Source: Ectothiorhodospiraceae bacterium 2226 (GTDB taxonomy: Bacteria; Pseudomonadota; Gammaproteobacteria; GCA-013348725). Taken from it: a stretch of DNA of 64,000 bases. A program made the translations under genes and the position numbers. The notes beneath the pieces were generated by a model. The model searched no databases and was not told the DNA's origin. It saw only the letters and a list, made by a program, of their open reading frames with translations. The stretch lies in contig CP054689.1 of assembly GCA_013348725.1 (NCBI GenBank), positions 112,501 to 176,500 of the forward strand, in the 5' to 3' direction. Shown piece after piece: positions 4,602 to 54,709 of this stretch (position 1 is the stretch's first letter; the number at the start of each line of letters is the position of its first letter).

Positions 4602-4605
4602 CGTC

Positions 4606-5775
4606 TTGAACGACGCCCCGCCCGCGCCGGCCGCCGCCGGCCCGCGCATCATGATCGTCGCCGGAGAGGCCTCCGGCGACGCCCATGCCGCGCACGTGGT
4701 CCGCGCCCTTCGCGCCCGCACCCCGGACGCCCGTTTCTTCGGCATCGCGGGCACGCATATGCAGCGTGAGGGCGTCGAGGCCTTGGTGGACGCGCGGCAG
4801 ATGGCGGTGGTGGGACTGGTCGAGGTGCTGGCCCACTTTCGCTTCCTCTACGGCGTGCTCCAGCGCCTGCGCCGCGTGTTGCGCGACGAGCGACCCGATC
4901 TTCTCATCCTGGTCGACTATCCCGATTTCAACCTGCGCCTGGCCCGAACCGCCCGCGAGCTCGGGGTGCCGGTGCTGTACTACATCAGCCCGCAGGTGTG
5001 GGCCTGGCGCAAGGGGCGGGTAAAAACCATCGCCGAGCGGGTCGACCGCATGGCGGTTGTGTTCCCGTTCGAAGTGCCGCTCTACCAGGACGCGGGGCTG
5101 CACGTGGAGTTCGTCGGCCACCCCCTGGCAGAAGAATGCGAACCCATGGACCGCGTACAGGCGCGCGCGCGCCTCGGGCTGCCCGCCGGCACGCGCGTGG
5201 TGGGCCTGTTTCCCGGCAGCCGACGCAGCGAGGTCAAGCGCCTGCTTCCGACGATGGTCGCCGCTGCGGAGACCTTGCACCAACGCTTTCCCGACGTCCG
5301 TTTTCTGCTGCCCCTCGCCTCCAGCCTTGATCACGCCGACCTCGCGCCCCACCTCGCCGGTACGCAGGTCGAGATTGAGGTCGTCGAAGATCGCGCCCAG
5401 GAGGTCATGCACGCCAGTGACGCCATCGTCAGCGCCTCGGGCACGGCAACGCTCGAGATCGCCCTGGCCGGCACACCGCTGTTGATCGTCTACCGTGTAG
5501 CACCGCTCAGCTACACGCTGCTGCGGCGCATCATCAAGCTGCCGCATATCGGCCTGTGCAACATCGTCGCCGAGCGCGAAGTCGCGCCGGAGTTGCTCCA
5601 GGATGCGGCCGAACCCGGCCGTATCGCGGACGTGCTGGGAAGGATGCTCGAAGATGAGGTCTATGCGGCCGAGCTGCGCGCGGGACTTGCGGGAGTGAGG
5701 GCACGGCTAGGCGGCGCCGGCTGCGCGGAAAATGTTGCAAGAATGGCCGTGGAGATGCTCGGCGAACGGCGGTGA
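4606..5775 (+). CDS. lpxB: Lipid-A-disaccharide synthase LpxB
   Basis: LpxB condenses UDP-2,3-diacylglucosamine with lipid X to the lipid A disaccharide at the inner membrane. The 389-residue product has GEASGDAHAAHVVRAL near the N-terminus, YYISPQVWAWRKGRVKTI mid-protein, GLFPGSRRSEVKRLLP, and SASGTATLEIALAGTP near the C-terminus, all GT19 hallmarks. The frame opens with TTG at 4606, four bases after gnnB; the first ATG (4651) falls inside the conserved IVAGEASGD strand and would truncate it, so TTG is preferred. In many gammaproteobacteria lpxB follows lpxA directly. Here it is on the opposite strand, convergent to lpxA and joined to gnnAB. Confidence 0.95.
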   Translation: MNDAPPAPAAAGPRIMIVAGEASGDAHAAHVVRALRARTPDARFFGIAGTHMQREGVEALVDARQMAVVGLVEVLAHFRFLYGVLQRLRRVLRDERPDLLILVDYPDFNLRLARTARELGVPVLYYISPQVWAWRKGRVKTIAERVDRMAVVFPFEVPLYQDAGLHVEFVGHPLAEECEPMDRVQARARLGLPAGTRVVGLFPGSRRSEVKRLLPTMVAAAETLHQRFPDVRFLLPLASSLDHADLAPHLAGTQVEIEVVEDRAQEVMHASDAIVSASGTATLEIALAGTPLLIVYRVAPLSYTLLRRIIKLPHIGLCNIVAEREVAPELLQDAAEPGRIADVLGRMLEDEVYAAELRAGLAGVRARLGGAGCAENVARMAVEMLGERR

Positions 5776-31495: not shown

Positions 31496-32743
31496 TCAAG
31501 CGCCTCGCACCTGACCGCGCTCGCGCACCCGCGCCTTCGCGCCACGTCCGCCGAGTGCCACATCGTACGCCTGCAACAGTTTCGGGGCCTCATACTCCCA
31601 GGCGAGGTCATTCTCCACGCGCGCCCGCCCGAAACGCCCCATCTCGTCGCGCCGCGCCGGATCGTCGATCAGCTCCACAATCTTGCGTGCCATGTCTTGC
31701 GCATCGTTCGGCTTTGCATAGAGCGAGGCGGCCTGCGCAGAATAACGACCCTCGGTGAGATCGAACTGCACAATCGGTTTGCCGAGCGCCATGTACTCCA
31801 TGATCTTGTTCATGGTGCTCTTGTCGTTCATCGCGTTGGCGACATCGGGGTTCACGCACACATCGGCCGTGTTCAGCACCTCGAGTAACTCCGCGTCCGG
31901 TGCGCGCCCTGTGAACGTGACGTAGTCGGCCACGTGCAGAGCCTGCGCGTACTCCTGCATCTCCTCCAGCGAGGTTCCGCCGCCGACCAGCTTGAAATGG
32001 ATGTCGGTACGGCCGAGGTCGTAAACGATGTGACGCACTGAGCGCAAAAGGTAGTCGATGCCTTCCTGACGCCCCATCACGCCGACGTAACCGACCAGAT
32101 GCTTTCGACCGTGGCGGTGCGCCGCCACCGGTGGCTGCAGCCGCAGGCGCGAAAGGTCCGGCCCGCTGCGCACCACGAACACGCGCTCGGGCGCCATCCC
32201 TCCGCGCTCGAGCGCGATGCGCCGGTAGGACTCGTTGGTGGCCAGCGACACGTCCGCGGTGCGGAAGGTTCGCCGCTCTAACCACAGCAGCAGACGATAG
32301 AAGAAGTCGCGCCGGCCGAACTTCGCCTCGTAGAGTTCCGGATTGATGTCGTGGTGGTCGAAGATGAACCGTCGCCGGAAGAGCTTGAATACGCGCCCAA
32401 TCAAGAAAATCGTGTCGGGGGGATTGCACGCGTGGATGACATCAAAGCCCCGCGTGAAGAACACCTTGCATGCGAGATAGAACTGCGCCGCCAAGGCCCA
32501 GCCGTACTCCACCGCATACCCCAGCGCACCCTCCGCCTCCATCGGGAGGCGGTGGCGGTAGATGTGGATGTCGTCGATGACTTCGTAGCGGGCGTCGTAT
32601 CCTTTCCCGATAGGGCAAATGACTGCCACTTGGTAACCGGCGTCACGCAGCGTGCGGGCCTCCTGCCATACCCGTCGGTCGAACGGGACCGGCAGATTCT
32701 CGACGATGATGAGGACGCGACGCCCGTTACCAGCCGATGCCAT
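31496..32743 (-). CDS. Glycosyltransferase family 4 protein
   Basis: A 415-residue GT-B enzyme. It opens RRVLIIVENLPVPFDRRVWQ, with the acceptor-side loop; FDVIHACNPPDTIFLIG lies mid N-domain. The donor-binding C-domain contains LVGYVGVMGRQEGIDYLL and the EX7E-type block IMEYMALGKPIVQFD. The ATG at 32743 has GGAGGG seven bases upstream and overlaps the algD-like gene by 17 bases; longer in-frame extensions read over algD. Direct coupling to the GDP-mannose dehydrogenase suggests it transfers mannuronate or mannose into the polymer; the donor is not fixed by sequence. Confidence 0.85.
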   Translation of the reverse strand: MASAGNGRRVLIIVENLPVPFDRRVWQEARTLRDAGYQVAVICPIGKGYDARYEVIDDIHIYRHRLPMEAEGALGYAVEYGWALAAQFYLACKVFFTRGFDVIHACNPPDTIFLIGRVFKLFRRRFIFDHHDINPELYEAKFGRRDFFYRLLLWLERRTFRTADVSLATNESYRRIALERGGMAPERVFVVRSGPDLSRLRLQPPVAAHRHGRKHLVGYVGVMGRQEGIDYLLRSVRHIVYDLGRTDIHFKLVGGGTSLEEMQEYAQALHVADYVTFTGRAPDAELLEVLNTADVCVNPDVANAMNDKSTMNKIMEYMALGKPIVQFDLTEGRYSAQAASLYAKPNDAQDMARKIVELIDDPARRDEMGRFGRARVENDLAWEYEAPKLLQAYDVALGGRGAKARVRERGQVRGA

Positions 32744-34040
32744 CGTAACGCCCTCCATCGCTGCGTACGGCGCCGATGCGCACCAGATCGACCAGGACCT
32801 GATCCCGGCGCAGGCGTTTGGCAACCTCCCAGAACTCCGGGTCGCCATTGCCCACGACCAGCGTCTCGCCGTGCTCCAGCACGTCATCCACCCGCGTAGC
32901 CATCAGACGCGCGATGTGCGGGATGCGGTTCAGGATATAGTCGCGATTGGCGCCGACCAGGCGCGCGAGATTCACGTTGCGGTCATACAGCTTGAGGTCG
33001 AACCCCTTGCCGATGAGCCGTTCGATCACCTCCACCATCGGGCTCTCGCGCAGGTCGTCGGTACCGGCCTTGAAGCTGAAACCGAGGATGCCGATGCGCT
33101 GATGCCCCTTATCCATGATCATCCGCAACCCGCGCTCGATTTGGCGCTCGTTGCTCGGCAGGATGGCGTTCAGCACCGGCAGGTCGAGGTCCATGCTACG
33201 CGCCTTGTACGTCAGCGCACGTACATCCTTCGGCAGGCACGACCCGCCGAAGGCAAAACCGGGCTTGAGGTAATACGGCGAGAGGTTCAGCTGGGTGTCC
33301 TTGCAGAACACCTCCATTACCTTGTGGCCGTCCACGCCCAGGCCCTTGCAGATGTTGCCGATCTCGTTGGCGAAGCAGACCTTGAGCGCGTGCCAGGTGT
33401 TGTCCGCGTACTTAACCATCTCCGCGGTGTCGATATCGGTGCGAATGACCGGCGCCTCGATCCCCTCGTAGAGCTTGAGCAACTGGTCGCCGCTGCGCCC
33501 GTCGGACTCCCCTAACACCGTCTTGGGCGGGTTGTAGAAATCGCTCACCGCGGTACCTTCACGCAGGAACTCGGGATTGTTGCAAACCCCGAAGCCCTCG
33601 CCCGCCCGCTTGCCGGAGAACTCCTCCAGGGTCGGGATCACCACGCTGCGCATCGAGCCCGGCAACATGGTGCTGCGCGCCACCACGACGTGGAAGTCGG
33701 ACTTGTCGCGCACGACGCTGCCTATTTCTTCGCAGACGCGGCGCACGTACTTCAGATCCAGGCTGCCGTTCATCTGGCTCGGTGTACCCACGCAGATCAG
33801 CGAGATGTCGCTGCCCTCCACCGCCGCGCGCACGTCCGGGGTGGCGCTGAGGCGCTCCGCACGGACCCCGTCGCGGATCAGGTCGCCGAGGCCATCCTCG
33901 ATGATCGGCGAGCGTCCCTCGTTGATGAGCTCGACCTTGGTCTCATTGGGATCCACGCCGATCACGGTGTGGCCCTGGCGCGCCAGGCATCCGGCCGACA
34001 CCGCGCCGACATAACCGAGCCCGAAGATACTGACTTTCAT
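32727..34040 (-). CDS. algD: GDP-mannose 6-dehydrogenase (AlgD-like)
   Basis: Oxidises GDP-mannose to GDP-mannuronate with two NAD+. The 437-residue product matches Pseudomonas AlgD nearly end to end: NAD motif MKVSIFGLGYVGAVSAGCLA, CVGTPSQMNGSLDLKYV, NNPEFLREGTAVSDF, and the catalytic Cys at 268 in FAFGGSCLPKDVRALTY, the same number as in P. aeruginosa AlgD. The C-domain has LGFSFKAGTDDLRESPMVEV. UDP-glucose dehydrogenases differ in several of these blocks. No other alginate genes (alg8, alg44, algG) are in the window, so the product is a mannuronate-containing polymer of unknown type, not necessarily alginate. Confidence 0.9.
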   Translation of the reverse strand: MKVSIFGLGYVGAVSAGCLARQGHTVIGVDPNETKVELINEGRSPIIEDGLGDLIRDGVRAERLSATPDVRAAVEGSDISLICVGTPSQMNGSLDLKYVRRVCEEIGSVVRDKSDFHVVVARSTMLPGSMRSVVIPTLEEFSGKRAGEGFGVCNNPEFLREGTAVSDFYNPPKTVLGESDGRSGDQLLKLYEGIEAPVIRTDIDTAEMVKYADNTWHALKVCFANEIGNICKGLGVDGHKVMEVFCKDTQLNLSPYYLKPGFAFGGSCLPKDVRALTYKARSMDLDLPVLNAILPSNERQIERGLRMIMDKGHQRIGILGFSFKAGTDDLRESPMVEVIERLIGKGFDLKLYDRNVNLARLVGANRDYILNRIPHIARLMATRVDDVLEHGETLVVGNGDPEFWEVAKRLRRDQVLVDLVRIGAVRSDGGRYDGIGW

Positions 34041-35516: not shown

Positions 35517-36791
35517 TCAACTCCCTCCCGCCCGGCGCCGGCGCGTGCCAGCGGCGAGACGCCGGTACTGCGCCTCCACCACGTCCGCAATGCGCGGGTA
35601 GGTGCGATGACGCTCGACGTAGCGCTTCCCGCGCCCTCCCATCTCCCGGGCGAGCTTCGGATTGGCCAGAAGATAATGAATCGCCTCGCCGAATACCTCC
35701 TCCTCGTAGGGCACGCAGATCCCGCCACCGCTCGCCTCGAGCACCGCCCGCTGCTCAGGATGGTCGTTGGCGACCACGGCCCGGCCCATCGCCATGTATT
35801 CGATCAGCTTGGTAGGGGACGTGGAATTCAAGATGGGCGTGGGATAGAACGGCGACACGCACACCGCCGCCGAAGCACTGATGGCCAATGCGTCCCCACG
35901 CGGCAACCGACCCGTAAACACCACCCGCTCGGATAACCCGCAGCGCTTCACCTCCGCCCGCAGAAACGCCATATCCTGCGGGTCATTCCCGTCACCGACG
36001 AAGCACAGATCCGCCTCGGGCATTCGTTCGGCAACCGGGCGAAAGGCGCGCACCAGAAAATCGAGCCGGCGCACCCGCGCCAGCGTCCCGAGGTACACTA
36101 CGCGGCGCGCGCCGCCCTCGGGAATCGCCGCGGGCACCGTCAAGGTCTCCAGCGAGACCCCCATCGGCACCGGCGTGACCTTTCGCGCATCGATCCCCAT
36201 GGCACACACGTCCCGCTTCATCTGCTCGCTCTGCACAAACACATGGTCAGCCGCGGGCATGATGATCCGATAGAGCAGGAGCCTGTACACCTGGCCCCGG
36301 GCGCGATAGAACCACGGAAAGCGCGCCGCGCCGACCCGCGCCGCGTACTGGGATGCCTCCGGGTACGGGAACGACAACCAGTAGGTGAACCGCGCACCGG
36401 TCGCGCGTGCGAACACCAAACACACCAGCGCGGATACGAACTTGTCCTTCACCTGCACGATGTCGTACCGCCGGCGGCGCGCGCGCCACAAGCCGGAGAC
36501 GTCGTGTACCAGAGCGCGGACGTTCTTCACCAGCCGCGCCCAACGTGAGGTACCGCCATTGGAGGGGCCGACCCAGGCCTCCCCGCCCCCCCACGCGGTG
36601 TCATATGCGCGCGCATTCGGTGCCTTGGCCTGAAGCACCAAATCAAGGGTATGACCTCGGCCGGCCAGTTCCTCGCCGAACAGCACCGTAACGTCCACGC
36701 GAAACGGGGGGTACTTGTCCGCCGCCACGATGAGCAGGCGCAACCCCTCCTCAACGGGAGGCTCGCCGCCCGTGGACGCGTGCGCCTCCAT
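35517..36791 (-). CDS. Glycosyltransferase family 4 protein
   Basis: A 424-residue GT-B enzyme: LRLLIVAADKYPPFRVDVTV at the start, YDIVQVKDKFVSALVCLVFA in the N-domain, then RRVVYLGTLARVRRLDFLVR and the donor block STSPTKLIEYMAMGRAVVAN in the C-domain. The second Glu of the EX7E pattern is replaced by His-Pro-Glu further on (NDHPEQRAVLEA), as in WcaI/WbuB relatives. ATG at 36789-36791 shares a base with the upstream sulfotransferase stop (TGATG), so the two are translationally coupled and probably act on the same repeat unit. Confidence 0.83.
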   Translation of the reverse strand: MEAHASTGGEPPVEEGLRLLIVAADKYPPFRVDVTVLFGEELAGRGHTLDLVLQAKAPNARAYDTAWGGGEAWVGPSNGGTSRWARLVKNVRALVHDVSGLWRARRRRYDIVQVKDKFVSALVCLVFARATGARFTYWLSFPYPEASQYAARVGAARFPWFYRARGQVYRLLLYRIIMPAADHVFVQSEQMKRDVCAMGIDARKVTPVPMGVSLETLTVPAAIPEGGARRVVYLGTLARVRRLDFLVRAFRPVAERMPEADLCFVGDGNDPQDMAFLRAEVKRCGLSERVVFTGRLPRGDALAISASAAVCVSPFYPTPILNSTSPTKLIEYMAMGRAVVANDHPEQRAVLEASGGGICVPYEEEVFGEAIHYLLANPKLAREMGGRGKRYVERHRTYPRIADVVEAQYRRLAAGTRRRRAGGS

Positions 36792-37606
36792 CACTGCACC
36801 GCGAGGGCGCGCGCGCGCTCGTACACGGGGCTGCACAGATCGTGGATCATGGCCCGCTCGCGCGCGCTCAAGCGGGAGGCCTTGTTCACGCTCGAGCCGT
36901 GGACGCCGTCCGCGTACGCGGCACGGTACTCCAGACCGGCGAACGCAAACACCTGCGGCAACAGGCGCATCTTGTCGGCCACCAGCGCGTCGTAATCCAC
37001 CACCAACATGCGCTCCCCGAGCGCCGGTGCCAGTTCGAAGACCTGCGCGGCTTTGCCGCTGTAGCTCAGACAGGCGCGCTTGAGACGCCTCACGGCCAGG
37101 TGCCCGAGCCGCCCCCCCAGCCAGTCATAACGGCGACGCGCGGGACCGTCCAACCGCGCCGCGCCGCATCCGCGGAACAACTCGTTGAGGCCGAAACTGC
37201 GCCAGTTGTAGAGCAACGAGTAGACCACCGAGTACGGGTTACGCACCACCCAGATCAGCCGGAAATCCGCGCCCTCTTGCAGGCTGGCGGCATATTCGCC
37301 GTACCGCTCGTTGAGGTAAGTGGTCTGAAAACAATGCCGACCGGCGACCTCATGCGGCACGGCACCGGCGAGGATCAGCGCGGCATCCAGCTCATCGTCG
37401 CGCCCGAAGCGGAAGTCGACCAACTCGGGCGCCTCGTTCAGGACGCGCGTCAGCATGGTCGTGCCGGAGCGCTGACACCCCGCCACCAGGACCGTGTCCC
37501 TGAACTCCCCGAGCCGGCGCAACAGCGGCCCGTCCTTGGCCCGCACTTGGCGGCCGAACTGTTGCCACGTCGTTATTTGCTGCACTCCCCCCAGTAGAAG
37601 CACCAC
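36791..37606 (-). CDS. Sulfotransferase (PAPS-dependent), copy 1
   Basis: Predicted to transfer sulfate from PAPS to a carbohydrate hydroxyl. The 271-residue product has the 5'-phosphosulfate-binding loop GCQRSGTT at 43-50 after a beta strand (FRDTVLVA) and the 3'-phosphate region IWVVRNPYSVVYSLLYNW with Arg and Ser suitably placed. The C-terminal part (LPQVFAFAGLEY) resembles the usual carbohydrate sulfotransferase end. It is coupled to a glycosyltransferase on each side (overlap of one base downstream; 18-base gap upstream). Start codons near 37606 are GTG GTG, preceded by GGGAGGGGA. The acceptor is unknown. Confidence 0.82.
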   Translation of the reverse strand: MVLLLGGVQQITTWQQFGRQVRAKDGPLLRRLGEFRDTVLVAGCQRSGTTMLTRVLNEAPELVDFRFGRDDELDAALILAGAVPHEVAGRHCFQTTYLNERYGEYAASLQEGADFRLIWVVRNPYSVVYSLLYNWRSFGLNELFRGCGAARLDGPARRRYDWLGGRLGHLAVRRLKRACLSYSGKAAQVFELAPALGERMLVVDYDALVADKMRLLPQVFAFAGLEYRAAYADGVHGSSVNKASRLSARERAMIHDLCSPVYERARALAVQ

Positions 37607-37624: not shown

Positions 37625-38818
37625 TCATCCGATATTCGCGCGAGTCCTCGCGACGCGCGCGGACCGTACCATGGCCCGTTCGTAGACCTCGACATAACGC
37701 TCGGCGATCACCCGCCAGCTGTACCCCGCGGCGTGCCGCTGCGCCGCCTGCCCCATCGCCGCACGGGCATCATCGTCCCGCAACACGCGCAACATGGCCT
37801 CTGCCAGGGCCACCTCGTCGCGCGGCGGCACCAGGAGGCCGTTGTCGCCATGGCGCACCACGTCGCGGTTTCCGGAGATGGCGCTCGCCACCACCGGCTT
37901 GGCGGCCGCCATCGCATCGAGCACCGCCAGCGACAGGCCCTCGGCGCCTTCGCTGACCCCGGCCGACACGTAAGCCTGCGCACCGCGATAAAGCTCCGCG
38001 AGTACGTCCTCCTCTGCCGAAGGCAACGGCGGCAAAGGCCCGAGCAACAACACCCGCCCCTGCAGCCCGTGGCGCGCCACGAGATCGGCGAGCACGGCGG
38101 TGTCGCGCCCGACTATCACCAGGCGCGCGCGAGGTTCGTGCTCGATGACGCGCGCCATGGCCGCGACCGCGACCTCGTGACCCTTGCGGGGATTGTAGTT
38201 GCCGACACTGAGCAGGAACTTGTCCTCGGGCGCCAACCCCAGGCGCGACAGTAGGTCGGGGCGCCGGGGACGCCGGAAACGCTCCAGGTCGACGCCGTTG
38301 GGTACGCGGTAGATCCGCTCGCGCGGTGCGCCCGCATCATGCAGCGATACCTCGATCGCCTCGCTGATCGCGGTGATCGCATCGGCCCGGTGCAGAGCCT
38401 GCCCGATCTTGTCACGCAGATGCGGGCGCAGCCGCAGCCCATGACCCAACTCGGGGATCACGTGGATATCCGCGCCGTGCGGCGTGATTACCAGCGGTAC
38501 GCGGCGCATGTGCTTGATGAGGCTCGCGCGGTAGCCGGCCGGATAGGTCGCGTGCGCATGAATCACGTCACAGCCGCGCAGCGCCACGTCCAGGCCCAGC
38601 TGCGCCACCCGCACCGGCCCCTGCAACACCCGTCCCAGCCCGGGGTAGCGGTGCACGGGATATTCGGTGCGCACACCCGCGTTACGCCACCATCCCGAGG
38701 CGCCGAGCACACGCACCTCGTGCCCCAGCCCCTGCAGGGCCCGCGCAAGCTGATGCACCACCAACTCGCGACCGCCCACATTGGGCAGAAACGAATTGAC
38801 GTAGAGCGCGATGTTCAT
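37625..38818 (-). CDS. Glycosyltransferase family 4 protein
   Basis: A 397-residue canonical GT4: MNIALYVNSFLPNVGGRELV at the start, CDVIHAHATYPAGYRASLIK, VPLVITPHGADIHVIPELGH, then ISEAIEVSLHDAGAPRERIY and VPNGVDLERFRRP at the domain junction. In the C-domain, FLLSVGNYNPRKGHEVAVAA and GAEGLSLAVLDAMAAAKPVV give the EX7E-like donor site. The stop of the upstream sulfotransferase copy 2 overlaps its start (ATGA). The donor sugar is not predictable. Confidence 0.88.
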   Translation of the reverse strand: MNIALYVNSFLPNVGGRELVVHQLARALQGLGHEVRVLGASGWWRNAGVRTEYPVHRYPGLGRVLQGPVRVAQLGLDVALRGCDVIHAHATYPAGYRASLIKHMRRVPLVITPHGADIHVIPELGHGLRLRPHLRDKIGQALHRADAITAISEAIEVSLHDAGAPRERIYRVPNGVDLERFRRPRRPDLLSRLGLAPEDKFLLSVGNYNPRKGHEVAVAAMARVIEHEPRARLVIVGRDTAVLADLVARHGLQGRVLLLGPLPPLPSAEEDVLAELYRGAQAYVSAGVSEGAEGLSLAVLDAMAAAKPVVASAISGNRDVVRHGDNGLLVPPRDEVALAEAMLRVLRDDDARAAMGQAAQRHAAGYSWRVIAERYVEVYERAMVRSARVARTRANIG

Positions 38819-39723
38819 GGCTCCACACCCGCGCGCGGGTCGGCGTAGCCGAAGTGGTCGAGCATCTGCGCGGCGTGGCGGCGCACGGTCTCCACCTCCT
38901 CGTGGGTAAGCCGGGCAAGACTCGCGCGGTCCATGTCCTGCACGGGGATGCGTAACGACCCCGACCAGCTCCGGCCGCAGAAGCGCGCAATGTCCTTGAG
39001 CGCGGTCTCGGGCCGCTGCGCGATGTCCTCGTAACGCACCGCGAGAAATTTATCCACGCCGCGCGCATCCTCAAGCATCACGCGGTTCACGGTATTCCAG
39101 TGGGCGGCCGCCCGCGCCAGCGGCTTCTTGCCCCGCCGGCGGATACTGTCCGATACCGCGTAGCCGTTGCGCACCAGGCCGATGAAGTAGCTGCGCGGAA
39201 ACACTTCTTGCAGCCATTGCATGCGCACGGCATTGGCCGGCGTCTTCTCGATGATCATGCGATCGACGTCCTCGCCCAGCGTATGCATCCAGTCATGCAC
39301 CAGGCGCGGCGCGACCTCGGGTTGCTCGCCCGGGCGCATGCGAAACTTGTCGAGGCGTTCGGTCCACACGCGCCGGATTGCCCGCTCGCCGCCGCGCGTC
39401 AACGCCAGCGTCGCCATGCGCCCCTCCTGCTCGAAGCCGCACACCCCGTCCAGCTCGTTCAGCAACGTGCGCAGCAGGGTCGTTCCCGAGTTGTTGCAGC
39501 CGACGATGAAGCACCACTCGTGCGCGCCGGCGACATCCGCGTAGTGGCGCTCGAAGAAACGACGCCCGCCACCCACGTGCCAGGACAGCGCCCGTTCGAA
39601 GTCCCCCCACGCCTGCCCCCCCTGGCGCAGCAGCCGCCGCACGCCCTGATCCACGCGCGCCGCGAGACCGCTGCCGCGACGGGGCGCTAGCGGCATCCCC
39701 CGTTGTGTTTTCGCCGTCGCCAT
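38815..39723 (-). CDS. Sulfotransferase (PAPS-dependent), copy 2
   Basis: A 302-residue protein with the phosphosulfate loop GCNNSGTT at 75-82, following EWCFIV, and the 3'-phosphate region YFIGLVRNGYAVSDSIRRRG. Asn-Asn replaces the more usual Arg/Lys-containing loop of copies 1 and 3. ERLDKFRMRPGEQPEVAPRL and IIEKTPANAVRMQWLQ are typical of the Sulfotransfer_3 group. The ATG at 39723 has AGAGGA upstream; the longer in-frame extension is low-complexity, basic and likely untranslated. It is coupled to the next glycosyltransferase. It is not closely similar to copies 1 or 3, so it probably sulfates a different position or sugar. Confidence 0.8.
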   Translation of the reverse strand: MATAKTQRGMPLAPRRGSGLAARVDQGVRRLLRQGGQAWGDFERALSWHVGGGRRFFERHYADVAGAHEWCFIVGCNNSGTTLLRTLLNELDGVCGFEQEGRMATLALTRGGERAIRRVWTERLDKFRMRPGEQPEVAPRLVHDWMHTLGEDVDRMIIEKTPANAVRMQWLQEVFPRSYFIGLVRNGYAVSDSIRRRGKKPLARAAAHWNTVNRVMLEDARGVDKFLAVRYEDIAQRPETALKDIARFCGRSWSGSLRIPVQDMDRASLARLTHEEVETVRRHAAQMLDHFGYADPRAGVEP

Positions 39724-39970
39724 GCATTCCTCTCGCTTGCTTTCACGTCCTTGTGACTCGTCCTCCCGCCGCGCATGACTCGGCTCGCCGGTTTGGCGCT
39801 GAACGAGCGGTGGAACACAGAGGGGACTGAGTCGGCGTTGTCTGTACGACAACCTATTGTCATTGTGGCCCGCCCAACTGCGGCGGGCATGCACGTCCCC
39901 GCGGGCCGCGCGTTTCCTGCTGTGAGAATAGCAGCGCCCCTTAGCGATGCCAGGCGCCTAAGGGATCACC

Positions 39971-41155: not shown

Positions 41156-42130
41156 TCAACGCGCCGACACGAAGCGCAAGCCGTGCCACCAGCCGCCCCA
41201 TGCCCGTCGCTGGAAAGCCAGCCAATGCACCCCGTCGCGCAGCTTCAGCGCCTGCATCGCCGCAGCACCCAGGCGCCAGTGCGGGATATTGGGAAACTCG
41301 CGCGCGTAGCCCAACTCATCGAGCAGCGGCCCGCACAGGCCCTCGATCTGACGCCGCGTACGTTCCGCCATGTCGCGCTGGAAACGACCGGCGTTGTCGC
41401 TCACCACACCTTTCTGACCCTGAGCCCAACCGAGGTTCTCCGAGGGGCGCTTGAGCTGCACCCGCGCGGGGTCGAACGGCGCTCCCAGGAAAGCCACCAC
41501 GCGCGCCACCTCGCGTTCCGGGTCACGGACCAGGTCCTCGTAACGCAGCTCAAGATAGCGTTCTGACCCGATCGCACGACCCACTCGCCGCGCGGCCGAC
41601 ACTGCATCGAACCACCGCTGAGCGGTACGCAGTTTGTGCTTGCCCCAGGCACGTTCCGCCGACAGAGCCACATCGCGCGGATCGCGCACGATGTGCACGA
41701 AGCGACTCGCGGGGAAGTGGCGCGCGATCACGTCCAAGCGCTCGACGTGGGCCGGGGACTTGTCGCCCCACCGCAGCCGCTGCCATGGTCCGGCCGGCGC
41801 GCCCTCGCGCGCGTACAGGGCGCGGAACAAACCCTCCAACACCTGCGGCATGCGATAGCCCGGACATTGCGCGTACCACTCTTCCGCGGTGGGGGCGACG
41901 CCCTCGCTCTCCCAGTACCAGTAGGCCTTGGTGCGCGCCATATCCTGCGCGAGGCGTTGGAAGTTGCGGCGCTCGGCGAGATCGCCATACGTCCGCGCCC
42001 GCGTCAGGAAGTGCGGAAAGAAGTTGGTCTCCCCGTCGGGGATCCACAACCCAGGCTGCTGCTTGATGAGCGCGCGCAGCAGCTTGGTGCCCGAGCGCGG
42101 GGTTCCGGTGACAAAGAACGGAGCGCTCAT
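41156..42130 (-). CDS. Sulfotransferase (PAPS-dependent), copy 3
   Basis: A 324-residue Sulfotransfer_3-type enzyme. The phosphosulfate loop is GTPRSGTK at 9-16, the 3'-phosphate region RFVHIVRDPRDVALSAERAW, and a conserved RWGDKSPAHVERLDVIARHF lies between. LELRYEDLVRDPEREVARVV is a further family block. Length and motifs are normal. It overlaps the upstream glycosyltransferase by four bases (ATGA). It is closer to general carbohydrate sulfotransferases than copies 1 and 2. The acceptor is unknown. Confidence 0.85.
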   Translation of the reverse strand: MSAPFFVTGTPRSGTKLLRALIKQQPGLWIPDGETNFFPHFLTRARTYGDLAERRNFQRLAQDMARTKAYWYWESEGVAPTAEEWYAQCPGYRMPQVLEGLFRALYAREGAPAGPWQRLRWGDKSPAHVERLDVIARHFPASRFVHIVRDPRDVALSAERAWGKHKLRTAQRWFDAVSAARRVGRAIGSERYLELRYEDLVRDPEREVARVVAFLGAPFDPARVQLKRPSENLGWAQGQKGVVSDNAGRFQRDMAERTRRQIEGLCGPLLDELGYAREFPNIPHWRLGAAAMQALKLRDGVHWLAFQRRAWGGWWHGLRFVSAR

Positions 42131-43359
42131 GCGCCGACCTCCCGCTCGACACCGTACAGCGCCACCAGATCGTCGACGACCAGGGGGAGCGCATAGGCGC
42201 GCTCCACGCGGCGCCGGTTGTACGCCCCCATGCGCGCGCGCCTTGGTGCGTCCCCGATGAGCCGTCGCAGCGCCGCGGCCAGTTCCGCGACAGCGCCCGG
42301 CGCCACCAGATAACCGCTGCGCCCGTGCTCCACCAAGTCGGGTATTCCGCCGGCATGCGTCGACACCACGGGGTGTCCGTGCGCCATGCCCTGCAAGAGC
42401 GCGACCGGCAACCCTTCCCGGTACGAGGGGAGCACCACAATACTGGGCTTACCGAGCAGACGTTCCACGCCTTCCCGATCGATCCAGCCGCAGATCTCGA
42501 CCCGCTCCTCGAGGCCATGTTCGCGCACGAGCGCGCGCGCCTTGTCGAGATCTCCGTCGCCGGCGATGTAGGCCCGCCACCCGGGCACCGCGCGCAGCTG
42601 CGCTAGCGCGCCGATCAGATCCCAGGCCCCCTTGCGTTCCCCGACCCGGCCCAGGAACACCAGCTGAACTTCGCTCGCTTGCACATCATCCGCTGCGAGT
42701 GGCGGGATAGCGACCGGATTGCCGAGCACGTGCACCCCTCGGCGCGTGCCGCGCAGTTCGGCGTAGAAGCGGCCCCAACTCGGACTGAGGGCGATCACCT
42801 CGGTGCGCGCCAGCGTCGCCCGTACATACCCGCGCGCCCAACGCGGCAGGCCGGCATAGAACTCCTGGAAGCTGGAGGCATGCATGTGGAACAGCGTTCG
42901 CCGGCCCAGGAGGCGCGCCATCCACAGGTAGACCGACTTACGGAAGAAGCTGCCGTTGGCGGCCACCATCAGGTGTACGACATCGGGACGCCAGAACAGC
43001 ATGTCGAAGCCGATCCGCAGCGCGGCCGCAACGGCCACCGCGAGCCTGAGGGGCAAGCGCCCTTCCAACTGGCTCCAGCGATAACGCAGAGAAACCCGGT
43101 TCGAAAGCCCGCCCCGGCGATAGAGTGCGTAGACGGCGGCGATCCCGCCCGGCGTGCGCTCGGGATGGACACCGATCATGAGTACCCGTGGCTTGGCAAA
43201 GCCGTCCTGCCTAGCCTCCACGCACGGCGCACCTTCCAGTGGCACTGCATGGAGCGACCGCTCGGACAGAGTCTGTTGCGCGATGGGTGCCGGCCGAACG
43301 GCGCGGCATACAGAGATGGAGACGTCGCCCATCTCCGTTTGAGTACTGCCATTCCTCAT
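42127..43359 (-). CDS. Glycosyltransferase family 4 protein
   Basis: A 410-residue GT4. After a variable N-terminal stretch of about 55 residues come PRVLMIGVHPERTPGGIAAV (acceptor loop), DVVHLMVAANGSFFRKSVYL and TLFHMHASSFQEFYAGLPRW. The C-domain has LVFLGRVGERKGAWDLIGAL and the donor block SYREGLPVALLQGMAHGHPV (EX7E). The ATG at 43359 follows GGGAGGG at five bases. A possible promoter lies about 60 bases upstream, making this the first gene of the sulfotransferase/glycosyltransferase operon. Confidence 0.88.
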   Translation of the reverse strand: MRNGSTQTEMGDVSISVCRAVRPAPIAQQTLSERSLHAVPLEGAPCVEARQDGFAKPRVLMIGVHPERTPGGIAAVYALYRRGGLSNRVSLRYRWSQLEGRLPLRLAVAVAAALRIGFDMLFWRPDVVHLMVAANGSFFRKSVYLWMARLLGRRTLFHMHASSFQEFYAGLPRWARGYVRATLARTEVIALSPSWGRFYAELRGTRRGVHVLGNPVAIPPLAADDVQASEVQLVFLGRVGERKGAWDLIGALAQLRAVPGWRAYIAGDGDLDKARALVREHGLEERVEICGWIDREGVERLLGKPSIVVLPSYREGLPVALLQGMAHGHPVVSTHAGGIPDLVEHGRSGYLVAPGAVAELAAALRRLIGDAPRRARMGAYNRRRVERAYALPLVVDDLVALYGVEREVGA

Positions 43360-43418: not shown

Positions 43419-43446
43419 ATTATGAGTTACGCGGCAATCGCGTCAC
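43419..43446 (-). promoter_or_regulatory. Candidate promoter for the 43.4-34.2 kb operon
   Basis: On the minus strand GTGACG (complement of 43441-43446) and CATAAT (complement of 43419-43424) are separated by 16 bases, matching -35 and -10 at four and five of six positions. It overlaps the stop codon of the preceding lyase-like gene. Confidence 0.35.
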
Positions 43447-44417
43447 CTGAGTATAGATAAGCTGCTGCGGTCTTGTACGATCTCGCACCGGACGCAGTTG
43501 TCCCCTTCGGGCTCGGCCTCACCGACCGGTTGCGCAGGTGCCGGTGAGACTTCGGCCGGCGGCGCGACGTCTACCGCTAGACCCTGCGGGGCAGCGGGGG
43601 TGCCACCGGTCGGCCCGTTCATGGTCGACACCGCCTCGAACTGATTGGAGCCCAGCGCCACCCGCAGGTCACCATAGTACAACGAGCGCTGATTGGTGTT
43701 GGTACGGCGGCTGCTCCAGCTCGGCTTGTAGATACCGATCTTCATGTTCGGACCCTTGCGGTCATTGAACATGGTGCGCGTGCGCTGCGACAGCACCTTC
43801 TCACCATCCTTCCAGATCTCGAGGATCCCGTCGGTCTGGTGGCTCCACTTGATCCGCATCACAAAGTGCGTCCAGCGGCCCGTCTCGTACGTGCCGAGCT
43901 TGCGCTGCACCCAACTCTGCCAGGGGCGGTCGTCGCGGCTGATGCACCGGCGCGAGTCGCCGACCGAGGTGACGATCCACGAGTCGTTGCGGATCGACAA
44001 GTTGAGGTTGGGCGCGCGCTGCGACGGGCAACCCGCGTCCGCGGCACCGTGAAACTGGAACAGGATGTCGTCTTCCGTATCCCGGTCGAACTTGTCCAAC
44101 CAAACCTTGAAGCCGTACCAGTACTCCTGCCCCGGAGAAGCGTTGCGGACATTATTGGGCACCATACCGCTGATGTGCACCAGCTCGGACCGGAACGAAA
44201 CGGGATCGTTGCGATTGAGCACGAAGCGCGCCGCCGTGCCATCACCGTCCGGCGCAGCCGTAACTGACGTGGTGTTGTTACCCGAGAATGCCCATTCGTT
44301 GATCTGCGAGAAATCGGTGTCGTAGATCACGTTCGCGCCCGCGCTCAAGGGCGCTGCAAGGGCCAGTACTGCCGCGGCCATCCATCCTTTACCAAACCGG
44401 CTTATTCCGCCTTTCAT
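43443..44417 (-). CDS. Secreted polysaccharide-lyase-like protein 1
   Basis: A 324-residue exported protein resembling the Polysacc_lyase/heparin-lyase-I-like jelly-roll family, which includes glucuronan lyases (PL20). The signal peptide is residues 1-28 (cut after SAGA). Fold blocks: FRSELVHISG near 75, EYWYGFKVWLDKF near 98, ILFQFHG near 118, GRWTHFVMRIKWS near 180, GILEIWKDGEKVL near 197 and KIGIYKPSW near 226. A Pro/Ala-rich tail of about 55 residues with two Cys (CVRC) follows. The ATG at 44417 follows GGGAG. The substrate is inferred to be the uronic-acid polymer of this locus; catalytic residues were not assigned. Confidence 0.7.
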   Translation of the reverse strand: MKGGISRFGKGWMAAAVLALAAPLSAGANVIYDTDFSQINEWAFSGNNTTSVTAAPDGDGTAARFVLNRNDPVSFRSELVHISGMVPNNVRNASPGQEYWYGFKVWLDKFDRDTEDDILFQFHGAADAGCPSQRAPNLNLSIRNDSWIVTSVGDSRRCISRDDRPWQSWVQRKLGTYETGRWTHFVMRIKWSHQTDGILEIWKDGEKVLSQRTRTMFNDRKGPNMKIGIYKPSWSSRRTNTNQRSLYYGDLRVALGSNQFEAVSTMNGPTGGTPAAPQGLAVDVAPPAEVSPAPAQPVGEAEPEGDNCVRCEIVQDRSSLSILR

Positions 44418-44549
44418 GTAGTCTCCCATCACCATGACCTGGATCGCGGGCCATGGTAATGAGCAGCAGACACTTGGAGCGGAACGGTTTCCCACTTCGC
44501 GCCCTAATCCGCCTTCTGGCGCCGCGACTTGGGAACCAGGTCGCGCGGA

Positions 44550-45290
44550 TCAGCGCATGCCCGAAGCTTGTCGCGGCGCCTCCTCCGCCTCGGCGACGAC
44601 CGCGGCGAGCGGCGTCGCGGCGCGCACCGGCACCGCCGGCAGTTCAGCCAGCGTCGGACGGCCTTGGCAGATCACGGTGAACGTCATCGTGAACCCCAGA
44701 AGCCGGCCTCGATGAAGACTGAATTCGGCAGCGCCGCCCGCTTCGAGCAGGGTTCCCAACGCGCGGCTGTCCAGAAGATTGAGGTCTTGCGCGCGGGGCC
44801 GCCCACGGCGCCACGCGTACCAGCGATCGAACAACGGCGTAATCCAGTGCAGAAAGGGGACCCCGGTGTGGGTCTCGATCGGGAACCATCGGTTGGGGGT
44901 AGTGAAGAATACGTTCTTGCCGACCCGCATCATCTCTTCAAGAAACGTCCGCTGGGCCTCGAAATCACCGACGTGTTCGATGACGGCGTTGCTGAACACC
45001 CAGTCGAAGGCACCGTCTGGGAACGGAAAACGACCGCCCGAGTAGGTCACAAACCGTTTGCCGGGGTGTTTGCGCGCCACCCCCGCAAGGTCATCGATGC
45101 CGAGACCGGTGTAGTCCTCGTCCCGGCCGCGAAAGTTCCTCAGGAAGTGATTCTGCGTAGGCGAGCGCTCATTGCCGGACACGCCTACGTCCAACACCTG
45201 ACCACCGTTGTACAGCGACCAGAAATGCGCTGCCTTGCGAGCGCGCGACGCGCGCATCACGGCCTGTTTCAGGCCCCCCCTCCTGGGCAT
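44550..45290 (-). CDS. SAM-dependent methyltransferase (class I)
   Basis: A 246-residue Methyltransf_11-type protein. The SAM-binding motif I is degenerate (VLDVGVSGNERSP), followed by GLGIDDLAGVARKHPGKRFV, the motif III-like FPFPDGAFDWVFSNAVIEHV and MMRVGKNVFFTTPNRWFPIE. FFTTPNRWFPIETHTGVPF is typical of enzymes in surface-glycan loci. The ATG at 45290 follows AGGAG; a GTG six bases earlier lies too close to that site. It sits between the two lyase-like genes and probably methylates a sugar in the same polymer or its lipid carrier; the acceptor is unknown. Confidence 0.75.
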   Translation of the reverse strand: MPRRGGLKQAVMRASRARKAAHFWSLYNGGQVLDVGVSGNERSPTQNHFLRNFRGRDEDYTGLGIDDLAGVARKHPGKRFVTYSGGRFPFPDGAFDWVFSNAVIEHVGDFEAQRTFLEEMMRVGKNVFFTTPNRWFPIETHTGVPFLHWITPLFDRWYAWRRGRPRAQDLNLLDSRALGTLLEAGGAAEFSLHRGRLLGFTMTFTVICQGRPTLAELPAVPVRAATPLAAVVAEAEEAPRQASGMR

Positions 45291-45524
45291 AACCACTCCT
45301 TATTCTTAGGCTCGTTCTACGCTTATTAAGGGGCATGCTTTCCCGACTGAGGGGAACTCGCCCGGTTGTTCTTCATCTTCCCGCCAGTCTAGCCGCTGCG
45401 TGCGGCGCGTCCAGCGAGAGCAGGCGCAGGCATCGCCGGCGTGCCGAAAACGTGCACTGCGTCACGCCTGGACCTCGCTATACATAAGCTTCCGGCACCT
45501 CCCTGTGCCGGTCCTACAAGCCAC

Positions 45525-46430
45525 TCAATCGTCCGACACGGAGACCCGCAGATCGCGCGGCGCGTGCGGCTCCACCACCCTGGACGGCGGCGTATGCACC
45601 GGAATGGTGGACACCATGTCGAAGCTGCCGCGGTGATCGGCGATGCGCACTGCGCCGGCGTAGCTGGCGATCCGGTCAACATTGGTGCTCTGGTCCTGAC
45701 GCCAGCTGAACTTGTAGATCCCCATGGTGATCTTGGGCCCGCGATCGTCGTTGTAGGCATTCGGGCCGCGGTGATCCACCTTCAGCTTGCCGTCCTTCCA
45801 GATTCGCAGGAGGCCGCCCTGACCCTCGTCGTACGCCCACTTGACGTTGAACACGAAGTGGTGCCAACGCCCGAGCTCCTGCTCGCCCACCACAAACCGG
45901 TTCCATGTAGTGAAGGTCTTGTCGGTGCTGTACTTGCGCTTGTCCGACATGCTCAGTACCACCCAACGGCCATCGTCGGTCGAGCCTAAGGACAAGGGCG
46001 GATTGCCGTAGATCTCGAGCAGATTGCCGGCCGCGTCGCGATCCGGCGTGCGGCCCCACTGGAACCAGTTCTCGCCGCGCACGTCAGGCTCATGCTCGTC
46101 GAGCCAGATGCTGAACCCGTACCAGTACTCCTTGCCGATCTCCGCGTTGCGCACTTCCGGGTGAACCTCATCGGAAATGAAGACGATCTCCGAGCGGTAC
46201 AGGCTGCCGTTGCTGCTGTCACCGTGCTCGATCTCGAAGTAGGCGGCTTTGCCGTACCCGTCCGGCGAGGGCTTGATCCGTGTGGTGGTATTGCCGTGAT
46301 GGCGCCACTCGGGCTCCAGAGACTCGAAATCGGTCTTGTAAAGCAACTGCGCATGGACCTGGGACGCACCCAGCATCATAGCGCCCGCGCACAGCGCGCT
46401 TGTCCATAGCCTTGAATGTGGGTACCTCAT
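45525..46430 (-). CDS. Secreted polysaccharide-lyase-like protein 2
   Basis: A 301-residue exported paralogue of the 43.4 kb protein. The signal peptide is residues 1-27 (cut after VHA). Shared fold blocks: LYRSEIVFIS near 77, EYWYGFSIWLDEHEP near 101, ENWFQWGRTPD near 120, GRWHHFVFNVKWAY near 187, GLLRIWKDGKLKVDH near 206, GPKITMGIYKFSW near 231. It lacks the Pro/Ala tail of the first copy. AGAGGA lies just upstream of the ATG. Overall similarity to copy 1 is moderate, so the duplication is old and substrates may differ. Confidence 0.7.
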   Translation of the reverse strand: MRYPHSRLWTSALCAGAMMLGASQVHAQLLYKTDFESLEPEWRHHGNTTTRIKPSPDGYGKAAYFEIEHGDSSNGSLYRSEIVFISDEVHPEVRNAEIGKEYWYGFSIWLDEHEPDVRGENWFQWGRTPDRDAAGNLLEIYGNPPLSLGSTDDGRWVVLSMSDKRKYSTDKTFTTWNRFVVGEQELGRWHHFVFNVKWAYDEGQGGLLRIWKDGKLKVDHRGPNAYNDDRGPKITMGIYKFSWRQDQSTNVDRIASYAGAVRIADHRGSFDMVSTIPVHTPPSRVVEPHAPRDLRVSVSDD

Positions 46431-49162: not shown

Positions 49163-49426
49163 GGCCCAATCCTAGCCGCACCAACCAGCTTTACCAGCCG
49201 GTCACTTGCACACGCTATGCCGCCAACTATGGTTGATCAAGATGATCAAGGCGATCGAGCCGTCTGGCGTGCCAGCACGGGAACGCGCAAGGACGTGCAC
49301 CCACGACGACACCCGGCCAAGCACCGGTTGCGCACGCAGCGCGACGCTCTTCGATCACGGGGGAGGCGCCGGCGGTTCATCATCGCGCGGCGGTGCAGAT
49401 AATAACGAGTGCTGGGGTACACATCG

Positions 49427-51817
49427 ATGGGGTCGCGCCCAAGGGTCGCCGCGCGGGGACTGACGTCCCTACTTATTCCTTTCTTTCTGTCGACGCTAGT
49501 CGCCTGCGGAGGCTCTGACAGCAGTTCCCCGCCCACGTCGGGCCCGCCATCGACCGGCGAAGTTCATACTCTTACGCTTACCCGCGGCTCCAACCATGAG
49601 GGCATTCTGCCCGGCGAGGGCGCCGCGCCGCTGCAGTACGCAATCGCAACGCAACCCGGTGCGGGCAGGGTTTACTTGCTAGACCCCGGGCAAGGGCGGT
49701 ATCGGTACATCCCCGACGCCGTGTTCTGGGGCGAAGACAGCTTCGAGTACCGCGTCACCGACGCCCATGGACGCACGACGGCGGCAACCATGGCTATCAC
49801 GGTGGAACGTGCCGAGGCCCTCTTCAATGCGACCTTTCCCGCAGGCGGTCTACCGGACGGATGGGTGCAGGCGAATCCGGTGGACGTGGTCGACGGCAGC
49901 ACCTACCCCTACCAATGGCGCGGTGAAGACGGGAAGCGCATACGCCAGACGTACGCGAATGACGTCTTCCGCGCCAGCCGCGGTCTTGCCGGCGGACACT
50001 CGCTGGGCGGCGTGGTGTGGTGGGCCGACGGCGTTCGTTGGGAGGACTATCGCTTCGAGGCCGACGTGGAACCGCCTGAGCACGGCGGCGAGGTCGGCCT
50101 CGTGTTTCGCGTCCAAGACCAGGATGTGGACTACCGGCTCAGCCTGAGCGCGCAGTCCACGTTCATCCGCCTGGAGCGGCGCGAGGGCGCGCCCACCGAT
50201 GAGCAGTCCGTCCCCTGGACGCCGCTGGCCACCAGTGCCCGCGGCTACCAGCACGGGCCCTTGCAGCTGACCGTCGACGTGCGCGGTCCGCTCATCCGCG
50301 TGTTCGTCGACGGCGTGGAGACCCTTACCGTGCGGGACGAGGATCCGCTACTGAGCGGCAGCATCGGCCTCTACGCGCGCCACCAGGCCTCGTTCGACAA
50401 CGTGCGCATCGAAACGCTTGCCGAGCGGCCGTCAATCGCGGTGACCCATCCGCAACCCTTCACAACCGTCAGCGGCCCCCTTCTGCGCGTCGAGGGCGCG
50501 CTCGCCGATGCGCCCTCCGCGGCCGAGGTCCGCATCCAGCTCCGCGAGGCCGCCGGCGGTCGCCTCATCGCGCAAGCCACGCGTCCCGCGGAGGCGGAAA
50601 GCTTCGCGGCGGACTTCGGCGGCCTACCGGCCGGCGACGCCATCCTCGACGTCGAACTGCTTCTCGACGGCGAAGTGCTAGCGTTCACCACGCGCGAGAT
50701 CGGGCTGAACGGCAAGACCTGGCTCGCGGTGGGCGACTCCATCCACAACGGCCATGGTGACAACTTTCCCGCCGACAATCGCACCTCGGAGGGGCGCATG
50801 ATCGGCACGCGCGGCATGGGTGCCGTGCTGGCCGAAGCCCTGAGCGTGCGGGGCCTGCCCACCGTGGTCATGAACGAGGCGGTGCCGGGCGACGAGTCCG
50901 ATCATACCGCCAAGCGCATCCACCACTACGTGGAACGCCACGCCGCGGCCGACGCGATCCTGCTGCTGGTCGGCACCAACGACGCTGGCGCAGCGACCGA
51001 GGGCCGCACCGCGAGCCACTACCGCATCCGCATTCGCCGCATCGTCGATACGGTGCTATCGATGAGCGGCCCCCCGATCCTGGCGGCGCGCGTGCCGCCG
51101 CGCTTTGGCGACCGCGCCGAAACGGTGCCCTACTCCGATCCCCACAACCACCCGCGCAATGTCAGCACGCGCGAATACAACGCGGTGCTGGACCAGGAAG
51201 GACTCCCGGGACCCGACCTCTATCATTTCTTCATTCAGGGCGGGCGCGTGAGCTTGTACGCCGACAATACCCACCCAAACAGCCTCGGTCACCGCATACT
51301 CGCCGCTTTGTGGCAACGCGCTCTCGCCGACGTCAACGCGCCGCTGCCGTTCTTCGTGGACAGTCTGGAGCCCTTCGGTTACCGCCAGGACCTTCGGCGC
51401 GTCGACGATCCGGTGTATGTGCGCCATCTACAAAACGCAGACGGCGCGGGATACCTCGTGCACGACGACGGCGCACGCCTGCGTGCACGACCGAGCTTTC
51501 TTGAACGTGGCATTTGGATACTCCCCGACAGCGGAGCCTCTGCGAATATGAACGGAACGGGGATGCGCTTCACCCTCGACCGCCCCGCCACCGTCTATGT
51601 CGCCTACGACGCCAACGCCTCCATCGTGCCTACGTGGCTAAACGACGCGTTTGCGCCTACTGGCGACACCGTCCGTACGACCGACGGCATTCTCACCCTT
51701 TGGCAGCAACGTATCGAGCAGCCGGGCGAAGTGAGCCTTGGCGCTAATCGCGCTGACGGTGCTTCTGGCGCGATGCAGTACCTGGTCATTGTGGTGCCGA
51801 GCCAGGACGTCTGGTAA
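49427..51817 (+). CDS. SGNH-hydrolase lipoprotein 1 (catalytic residues intact)
   Basis: A 796-residue outer-membrane lipoprotein, acylated at Cys27 (STLVAC, then Gly-Gly). Order of parts: cadherin-like/Big_9 repeat at about 45-128 (YRYIPDAVFWGEDSFEYRVT); a concanavalin-like beta-sandwich at about 130-330 (VGLVFRVQDQDVDYRLSL, SIGLYARHQASFDNVRIE); an Ig-like module to about 425; an SGNH/GDSL hydrolase at about 430-640; a C-terminal beta-sandwich from 690. Hydrolase block I GDSIHNG (Ser438), block II Gly488, block III GTND (Asn518) and block V DNTHPNSLGH (Asp613, His616) are all present, so esterase or deacetylase activity is likely. ATG at 49427 is preferred to GTG at 49409. It probably acts on an ester on the surface polysaccharide. 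Confidence 0.78.
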   Translation: MGSRPRVAARGLTSLLIPFFLSTLVACGGSDSSSPPTSGPPSTGEVHTLTLTRGSNHEGILPGEGAAPLQYAIATQPGAGRVYLLDPGQGRYRYIPDAVFWGEDSFEYRVTDAHGRTTAATMAITVERAEALFNATFPAGGLPDGWVQANPVDVVDGSTYPYQWRGEDGKRIRQTYANDVFRASRGLAGGHSLGGVVWWADGVRWEDYRFEADVEPPEHGGEVGLVFRVQDQDVDYRLSLSAQSTFIRLERREGAPTDEQSVPWTPLATSARGYQHGPLQLTVDVRGPLIRVFVDGVETLTVRDEDPLLSGSIGLYARHQASFDNVRIETLAERPSIAVTHPQPFTTVSGPLLRVEGALADAPSAAEVRIQLREAAGGRLIAQATRPAEAESFAADFGGLPAGDAILDVELLLDGEVLAFTTREIGLNGKTWLAVGDSIHNGHGDNFPADNRTSEGRMIGTRGMGAVLAEALSVRGLPTVVMNEAVPGDESDHTAKRIHHYVERHAAADAILLLVGTNDAGAATEGRTASHYRIRIRRIVDTVLSMSGPPILAARVPPRFGDRAETVPYSDPHNHPRNVSTREYNAVLDQEGLPGPDLYHFFIQGGRVSLYADNTHPNSLGHRILAALWQRALADVNAPLPFFVDSLEPFGYRQDLRRVDDPVYVRHLQNADGAGYLVHDDGARLRARPSFLERGIWILPDSGASANMNGTGMRFTLDRPATVYVAYDANASIVPTWLNDAFAPTGDTVRTTDGILTLWQQRIEQPGEVSLGANRADGASGAMQYLVIVVPSQDVW

Positions 51818-51950: not shown

Positions 51951-52018
51951 AAGCGAGACTCTCGTAGGACTCGTTCGGTCACCACAACGCTGTTCGAATA
52001 ATGACATGGAGGTACACC

Positions 52019-54270: not shown

Positions 54271-54709
54271 TGCCGGCGCAAGCTCGACACATCTTTGACG
54301 CTAAGGCGGCGGCGCCAAGGAATCCGGAGTACCTGCCCCGGATCGCATTCTTGCATCCGCCACCCCACTCATACGATCCACGGCCCCCGTTGTCGTTAAG
54401 CCAACACGTCCGCTCCACGGACCACAGTGGAGGTCGGTTCCACTCCATGCCGATCTGCACGCGCTGCAGTCGTCTCATTACGCCCAGGTGGTGGTCTGCC
54501 AAGAGTTTGGCCATCTATCGGGGGCCGCTGGAACACCGACACTGCGGTTGCAGGAACGTCTTCTTCATCTACTTTTTAGTAAAGACTGCGCCTGCGTGAA
54601 ATTGGCTCTATGGGTCCGCGATGAGGCGTGCCCCAAGAACGCGAGCGAGCAGTCCTATCATCGCTCATCGATAACCACAAGGAAGTTCACTAAGCGTATG
54701 GAGGGAACC
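54271..54709 (+). other. Intergenic region upstream of SGNH-like lipoprotein 3
   Basis: About 440 bases. The downstream half holds leader repeat copy B. The part from 54271 to about 54540 shows no gene with a ribosome binding site; a 121-codon open frame starting at 54234 runs through the terminator and the repeat and looks spurious. Confidence 0.5.
54546..54640 (+). repeat. Leader repeat copy B upstream of SGNH-like lipoprotein 3
   Basis: Counterpart of 51853-51950, with TTCTTCATCTACTTTT and TTGGCTCTATGGGT; the latter ends 95 bases before the gene start. The duplication that made lipoproteins 2 and 3 therefore carried its upstream control region. Confidence 0.7.

Follow-up and report, generated by a model that had tools for sequence, protein, structure and literature searches.

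Two sister PF14099 lyase-like genes with unequal presumed active-site motifs in an exopolysaccharide-type locus of Ectothiorhodospiraceae bacterium 2226

The lyase-like gene pair and its presumed active-site motifs

In the window analysed here, the whole 64,000-nt stretch of contig CP054689.1 from Ectothiorhodospiraceae bacterium 2226, two minus-strand genes, hereafter p1 and p2, encode lyase-like proteins and flank a methyltransferase gene, with the position and strand given in a preliminary description of this DNA. The genes and the motifs of the two proteins are the following.

43443..44495, minus strand: p1, a PF14099 lyase-like, exported-looking protein with the full R-S-E / Q-F-H / G-I-Y set and a proline-rich C-terminal tail
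44181..44192, minus strand: RSEL motif of p1 (Arg, presumed carboxylate neutraliser)
44049..44057, minus strand: QFH motif of p1 (Gln and presumed catalytic His)
43728..43730, minus strand: Tyr of the p1 GIYK motif, presumed catalytic, aligned with heparin lyase I chain position 357
44550..45296, minus strand: class I methyltransferase dependent on S-adenosylmethionine, between p1 and p2 (Methyltransf_11, E 3.5e-7; Methyltransf_23, E 1.9e-6)
45525..46430, minus strand: p2, an exported-looking PF14099 paralogue lacking the Q-x-H His, which opens the minus-strand run
46188..46196, minus strand: RSE motif of p2 (Arg and Glu retained)
46053..46061, minus strand: QWG of p2, where Gly replaces the His found in 41 of 46 aligned rows
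45714..45716, minus strand: Tyr of the p2 GIYK motif (retained)

Both proteins matched the Pfam family PF14099 ("Polysacc_lyase"), with 121.6 bits for p1 and 95.1 bits for p2 against a curated cut-off of 29.9 bits; the one-contig genome of 2,956,257 bases has no PF14099 gene besides these two. The open reading frame (ORF) of p1 has 350 codons counted from a GTG; an ATG at 44417, which follows GGGAG and stands directly before the evident signal peptide, is the likelier start. The p2 ORF (301 aa) is intact and has an N-terminus of the same kind, so that, judged by eye, clear signal peptides predict export of both proteins, in agreement with the secretion proposed earlier. The two sequences share 35% identity over 302 columns with an E-value of 7e-52, which rules out a likeness by chance and bears out the view that the pair is related but diverged. 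Each protein ends in a proline-rich linker followed by a short tail of the P-x-x-L/I/V-x-V/F/L type (43443-43610 and 45525-45600); the same arrangement closes the lyase pair of the metagenome-assembled genome (MAG) ZC4RG24 (locus L017), and in both pairs the tail may be what is left of a strand, or may serve as an anchor.

The fold was predicted with AlphaFold on a 27-row alignment, and gave confident models for p1 (predicted local distance difference test, pLDDT, 92.5; predicted template-modelling score, pTM, 0.91) and for p2 (pLDDT 90.2, pTM 0.90), with modelled domains of 241 and 250 aa, respectively. The top Foldseek match of both was 2zzj, the Trichoderma reesei glucuronan lyase (TrGL) of family PL20 (E 1.6e-16 for p1 and 1.0e-13 for p2), followed by heparin lyase I (PL13), with alginate lyases close behind. 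VIA-align superposed 224 residues of each model on 2zzj, with Z 26.4 and a root-mean-square deviation of 2.6 for p1, and Z 25.8 and 2.5 for p2; against heparin lyase I, Z was about 20 for both. Neurotoxin binding domains, also on the fold list, were taken to reflect the common lectin-like jelly roll. The heparin-lyase-I/PL20-like fold suggested in the preliminary description was thus recovered. At the sequence level, homology to TrGL was found by phmmer (E 4.1e-7 for p1, 8.7e-5 for p2) and by the family profile (E 3.5e-21), which makes this enzyme the best match of both proteins in sequence as well as in fold, with size, jelly roll, Gln and Tyr in common.

The shared motifs listed earlier (RSE, EYWYGF, GRW(T/H)H and GIYK) were all present in both proteins. 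The motif that separates the pair, Q-x-H, was absent from that list: p1 reads FQFH and p2 reads FQWG. Arg, Gln, His and Tyr are therefore all present in p1, and p2 has Arg, Gln and Tyr with Gly for His. Of the His, Tyr and Arg proposed earlier as residues to look for, the motifs of p1 hold all three and those of p2 hold Arg and Tyr; that the two proteins are equivalent lyases is thus not supported. Across 46 aligned rows, a set that includes p1, p2 and two duplicate pairs, Tyr was invariant (46/46) and Arg was missing from a single row, which has a gap there (45/46); Gln stands in 43 rows and His in 41. In the five rows lacking His, its place is taken by Gly in p2, Gln in L037 and L041, Trp in L044 and Ser in L013. 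The 27-row alignment uses 25 of 28 loci and excludes L037, L041 and L044, all of them His-less, and its His count of 26/27 flatters the conservation; the fair figure is 41/46.

When the family profile was aligned to solved structures, the Q-x-H His fell on position 151 of heparin lyase I (AQWHGMPD) and the G-I-Y Tyr on its chain position 357, as counted on that alignment. The PDB entry 3ina, entitled "heparin lyase I H151A mutant", reads AQWAGMPD at this place and mimics the state of p2, which lacks the His151 equivalent that p1 has. The catalytic roles given here to these residues in heparin lyase I are presumed from the titles of PDB entries and from background. Q-W-H and G-I-Y of this enzyme (3imn, 3ilr, 3ina), the second-best fold, align with p1; it differs in having about 110 residues between the two matched stretches, compared to about 28 in the family profile, where positions 109-137 match 3ilr chain 165-275, and this long PL13 insertion is absent from p1 and p2.

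Three motifs of the PL7 alginate lyases, (R/E)(S/T/N)EL, QIH and YFKAGVYNQ, resemble RSEL, QFH and MKIGIYKPS of p1, and in these enzymes catalysis is attributed to His and Tyr, and neutralisation to Arg and Gln (PMC9410210; this paper and the two cited below are used here from excerpts). The PL7 fold was matched with Z about 16. Neither p1 nor p2 has a PL7 match in Pfam, and p2 lacks the motif His.

TrGL departs from the pair at several of these positions. It carries Ile for the Q-x-H His (AQFI) and His for the R-S-E Arg (YHSEV), and it belongs to a fungal secretome, whereas the pair lies in a bacterial exopolysaccharide (EPS) locus. Conversely, p1 and p2 have Gly at a conserved Asp column, where Asp stands in 25 of 25 other rows and, when the set is widened to 46 rows, in 39; by our reading of the profile-structure alignment this column is Asp222 of 2zzj, a calcium ligand of TrGL according to the excerpt of PMC3764139.

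Duplication history and relatives

In a maximum-likelihood tree of 42 rows, p1 and p2 are sisters (99/98), as are the two copies of the proteobacterial MAG ZC4RG24 (84/72). This tree leaves aside four of the 46 rows, namely the duplicates L007 and L046 and the fragmentary or weak L041 and L047. The sister relation implies that the His was lost in p2 after the duplication, and since the Asp is missing from both proteins, their common ancestor probably lost the Asp first and p2 the His later. Both copies also show private departures at otherwise conserved columns, which indicates that neither is simply decaying. That p2 is a decaying pseudogene is not favoured, its ORF, signal peptide and confidently predicted fold being intact.

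PF14099-type lyases are uncommon near this lineage. With PF14099 at E <= 0.001, two of 56 nearby genomes gave matches, the bacterium's own included, and only its own was above the cut-off; alignment A1 at E <= 1e-8 found 9 of 369 genomes of the class and alignment A4 found 5 of 398 genomes of the phylum, again with its own among them. In MAG ZC4RG24 the two copies are adjacent and divergent, both read QWH, and their neighbours encode a polysaccharide deacetylase, PMT_2, Inositol_P, two GT2 glycosyltransferases, a Polysacc_synt flippase-type protein, a methyltransferase, a GT4 glycosyltransferase and Asn_synthase. A plasmid of Sulfitobacter S223 likewise carries two lyase genes within an EPS-type cluster with rfb and nucleotide-sugar-dehydrogenase genes; both retain Q-x-H, unlike p2. 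One of them (L064, 14869-18966) is joined to a stretch of about 1,100 residues made up of Gly/Asp-rich repeats, similar in look to RTX calcium-binding repeats, and the small second one adjoins it (20663-21400) and reads Q-C-H, outside the 46 rows. A Vibrio plasmid has a lyase gene outside any EPS locus, and a match on a Cupriavidus plasmid falls where the record is unannotated. Many relatives in Planctomycetota are C-terminal domains of proteins of about 570-830 aa. A viral origin of the genes found little to speak for it, with only three loci, weakly similar, from viral_contigs. Four further loci (L070-L073) were inspected by eye only and do not enter the counts.

The surrounding locus

The minus-strand run is headed by p2, the methyltransferase and p1, and continues with GT4 genes, three sulfotransferase genes and an AlgD-type gene; these would be co-transcribed. 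A scan for promoters and terminators gave nothing useful. The neighbours on this strand are as follows.

42127..43359, minus strand: GT4 glycosyltransferase, directly after p1
41156..42130, minus strand: sulfotransferase (Sulfotransfer_3, E 1.3e-36)
38815..39894, minus strand: sulfotransferase (Sulfotransfer_3, E 1.2e-20)
36791..37606, minus strand: sulfotransferase (Sulfotransfer_3, E 3.3e-10)
32727..34040, minus strand: AlgD-type GDP-mannose 6-dehydrogenase (1mfz, E 3.4e-160, 537 bits; UDPG_MGDP_dh domains)

Beyond p2, a GT4 gene begins on the plus strand at 46798, and this flank encodes GT4 and GT2 glycosyltransferases, a hexapeptide acyltransferase, GDSL-type proteins and sugar-nucleotide enzymes. 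Genes for ABC export (Wzt/Wzm-like) are located past the window end, together with those for an XrtA-type ATPase, a tyrosine kinase, a chain-length protein and an export protein (L004, G000:C1:176001-196000), all four below curated cut-offs. With its AlgD-type dehydrogenase, a gene for the supply of GDP-mannuronate, its three sulfotransferases, its many glycosyltransferases and the export genes, polymer biosynthesis is the right context for the pair, as had been proposed, and the AlgD neighbour is the one named before. The sulfotransferases interleaved with GT4 genes, along with the AlgD-type dehydrogenase, suggest a sulfated uronate exopolysaccharide, and the setting is likely that of synthesis and export of a sulfated, uronate-bearing polysaccharide.

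Two classical systems were rejected. Neither AlgL (PF05426) nor AlgE (PF13372) has a match in the genome, so a classical alginate system is not supported, and classical XrtA/PEP-CTERM sorting finds no exosortase, with no match to PF09721 in the genome. Wzy_C proteins are encoded in the genome, away from this locus.

Other features of the locus were recorded in passing. There are two TIGR03015-like ATPases, one in the window (27672-29048, minus strand; 458 aa) and one beyond it (L004, 5777-6634, minus strand), the former being longer and more diverged (148 vs 301 bits). Three large GDSL-type proteins stand in a row on the plus strand (49409-51817, 52001-54223 and 54488-56905), the first with additional Ig-like and 3keto-disac_hyd domains and the middle one below the Pfam cut-off; it is possible that the three are O-acetyl esterases of the polymer. 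An F5/8-type-C protein is also encoded within the locus (29534-31390, plus strand); in one relative (L010) the lyase follows an F5/8C-like stretch, as seen by eye, and in another (L038) a similar ORF (3028-5058) comes before the lyase.

Possible roles of p1 and p2

Starting from the family, the fold, the motif states, the sister relation and the locus, all of them shown by the analysis, we favour the reading that p1 would cut the uronate-containing EPS that the cell itself makes, in the manner of AlgL, and that p2 would be a mostly non-cutting binder of the polymer; we put its probability at roughly 0.5. Both genes would descend from a secreted jelly-roll uronan lyase of PF14099, closest to PL20 and PL13, that was duplicated long ago in this lineage, and their products would be made alongside the enzymes for a sulfated, probably mannuronate-containing exopolysaccharide. 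The p1 protein would cleave this polymer by beta-elimination, with Arg and Gln neutralising the carboxylate and His and Tyr moving protons. In this way it would rid the periplasm of stalled chains or determine chain length, as AlgL does with alginate. The p2 protein lost the His after the duplication and retained the fold, Arg, Gln and Tyr; most likely it binds this polymer and cuts it hardly or not at all, and would assist p1, or export, as a partner or chaperone.

The analogy with AlgL (PL5) was drawn already in the preliminary description. There too the lyase gene accompanies the genes that make its presumed substrate, and a clearing role has been proposed. Such a role is plausible for p1; what is new is that, after the duplication, the two copies differ at the presumed active site. 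AlgL differs in having an unrelated, toroid fold (excerpt of PMC8829089), and here the genes form a pair with one copy lacking the His, in a genome without an AlgL homologue. The recurrence of lyase pairs in EPS-type loci, in the proteobacterial MAG and on the Sulfitobacter plasmid, counts in favour of this reading.

Several observations weigh against it. The Q-x-H His is missing from the four relatives named above besides p2. It is missing from the glucuronan lyase 2zzj itself, so its loss weakens the case for activity of p2 and need not mean inactivity. The invariant Tyr kept in p2 argues against a pure lectin, and p1 also departs from conserved columns, so that p2 is not the sole diverged copy. 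The AlgD gene implies mannuronate only if the AlgD product enters this polymer, and the export genes look of the ABC (Wzm/Wzt) and XrtA type, not synthase-dependent, whereas clearing of the AlgL type is argued for synthase-dependent systems in the excerpt of PMC8829089. Finally, the relatives searched, within the same class, offered no close one for a test of selection on p2.

For p2, a polymer-binding pseudo-lyase is preferred as the most likely state, the other being a syn-lyase independent of the His. More tentatively, p2 might be a pseudo-lyase given over to binding the polymer, or might cut with the other stereochemistry, and the two proteins might together proof-read or measure the polymer during export; a literature search, judged on titles and the openings of abstracts, found no description of a lyase pair in such a role.

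Clearly less probable than the favoured reading is a stereochemical split in which both proteins cut, p2 with its Arg, Gln and Tyr by syn elimination at D-uronates (mannuronate or glucuronate), and p1 with its His also, or only, by anti elimination at L-uronates or sulfated residues. The Tyr and Arg retained in p2 are consistent with this, and the active glucuronan lyase 2zzj lacks the same His, but that enzyme has His for the R-S-E Arg, which p2 does not. In the excerpt of PMC8829089 syn cleavage of mannuronate is ascribed to Tyr with Arg, and anti cleavage of guluronate is said to be beyond Tyr alone; the PL7 enzymes, on the other hand, use His and Tyr jointly (excerpt of PMC9410210), and L-uronates in the polymer are a presumption.

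We consider it unlikely that both are non-catalytic, secreted components of the matrix, binding the EPS or anchoring it, a lectin-like alternative already raised in the preliminary description. The fold is common to binding modules and to Cip1, for which the excerpt of PMC3764139 reports no convincing lyase activity, and both proteins lack the Asp matching the calcium ligand Asp222; yet p1 carries every motif residue named for jelly-roll lyases and the Tyr is invariant in the 46 rows. What stands of this alternative applies more to p2 than to p1, since p2 has no Q-x-H His. Least probable is scavenging or dispersal, the digestion of foreign or old matrix polysaccharide with an incidental position in the EPS locus: although many of the long Planctomycetota relatives look degradative (an impression from one sequence), the pair heads a biosynthetic run, and in the genome there is no third PF14099 gene and no match to KduI or Hepar_II_III_C (other uronate routes were not searched), which argues against feeding on uronans.

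If p1 indeed acts on the polymer of its own locus, the AlgL principle would extend from synthase-dependent alginate to a sulfated EPS of the ABC/XrtA type, and to a jelly-roll fold unrelated to that of AlgL. With its naturally occurring change of His to Gly in one copy, the pair lends itself to asking if Tyr on its own is enough for elimination by a protein of this fold, and p1 could prove useful for cleaving bacterial EPS that is sulfated and contains uronates.

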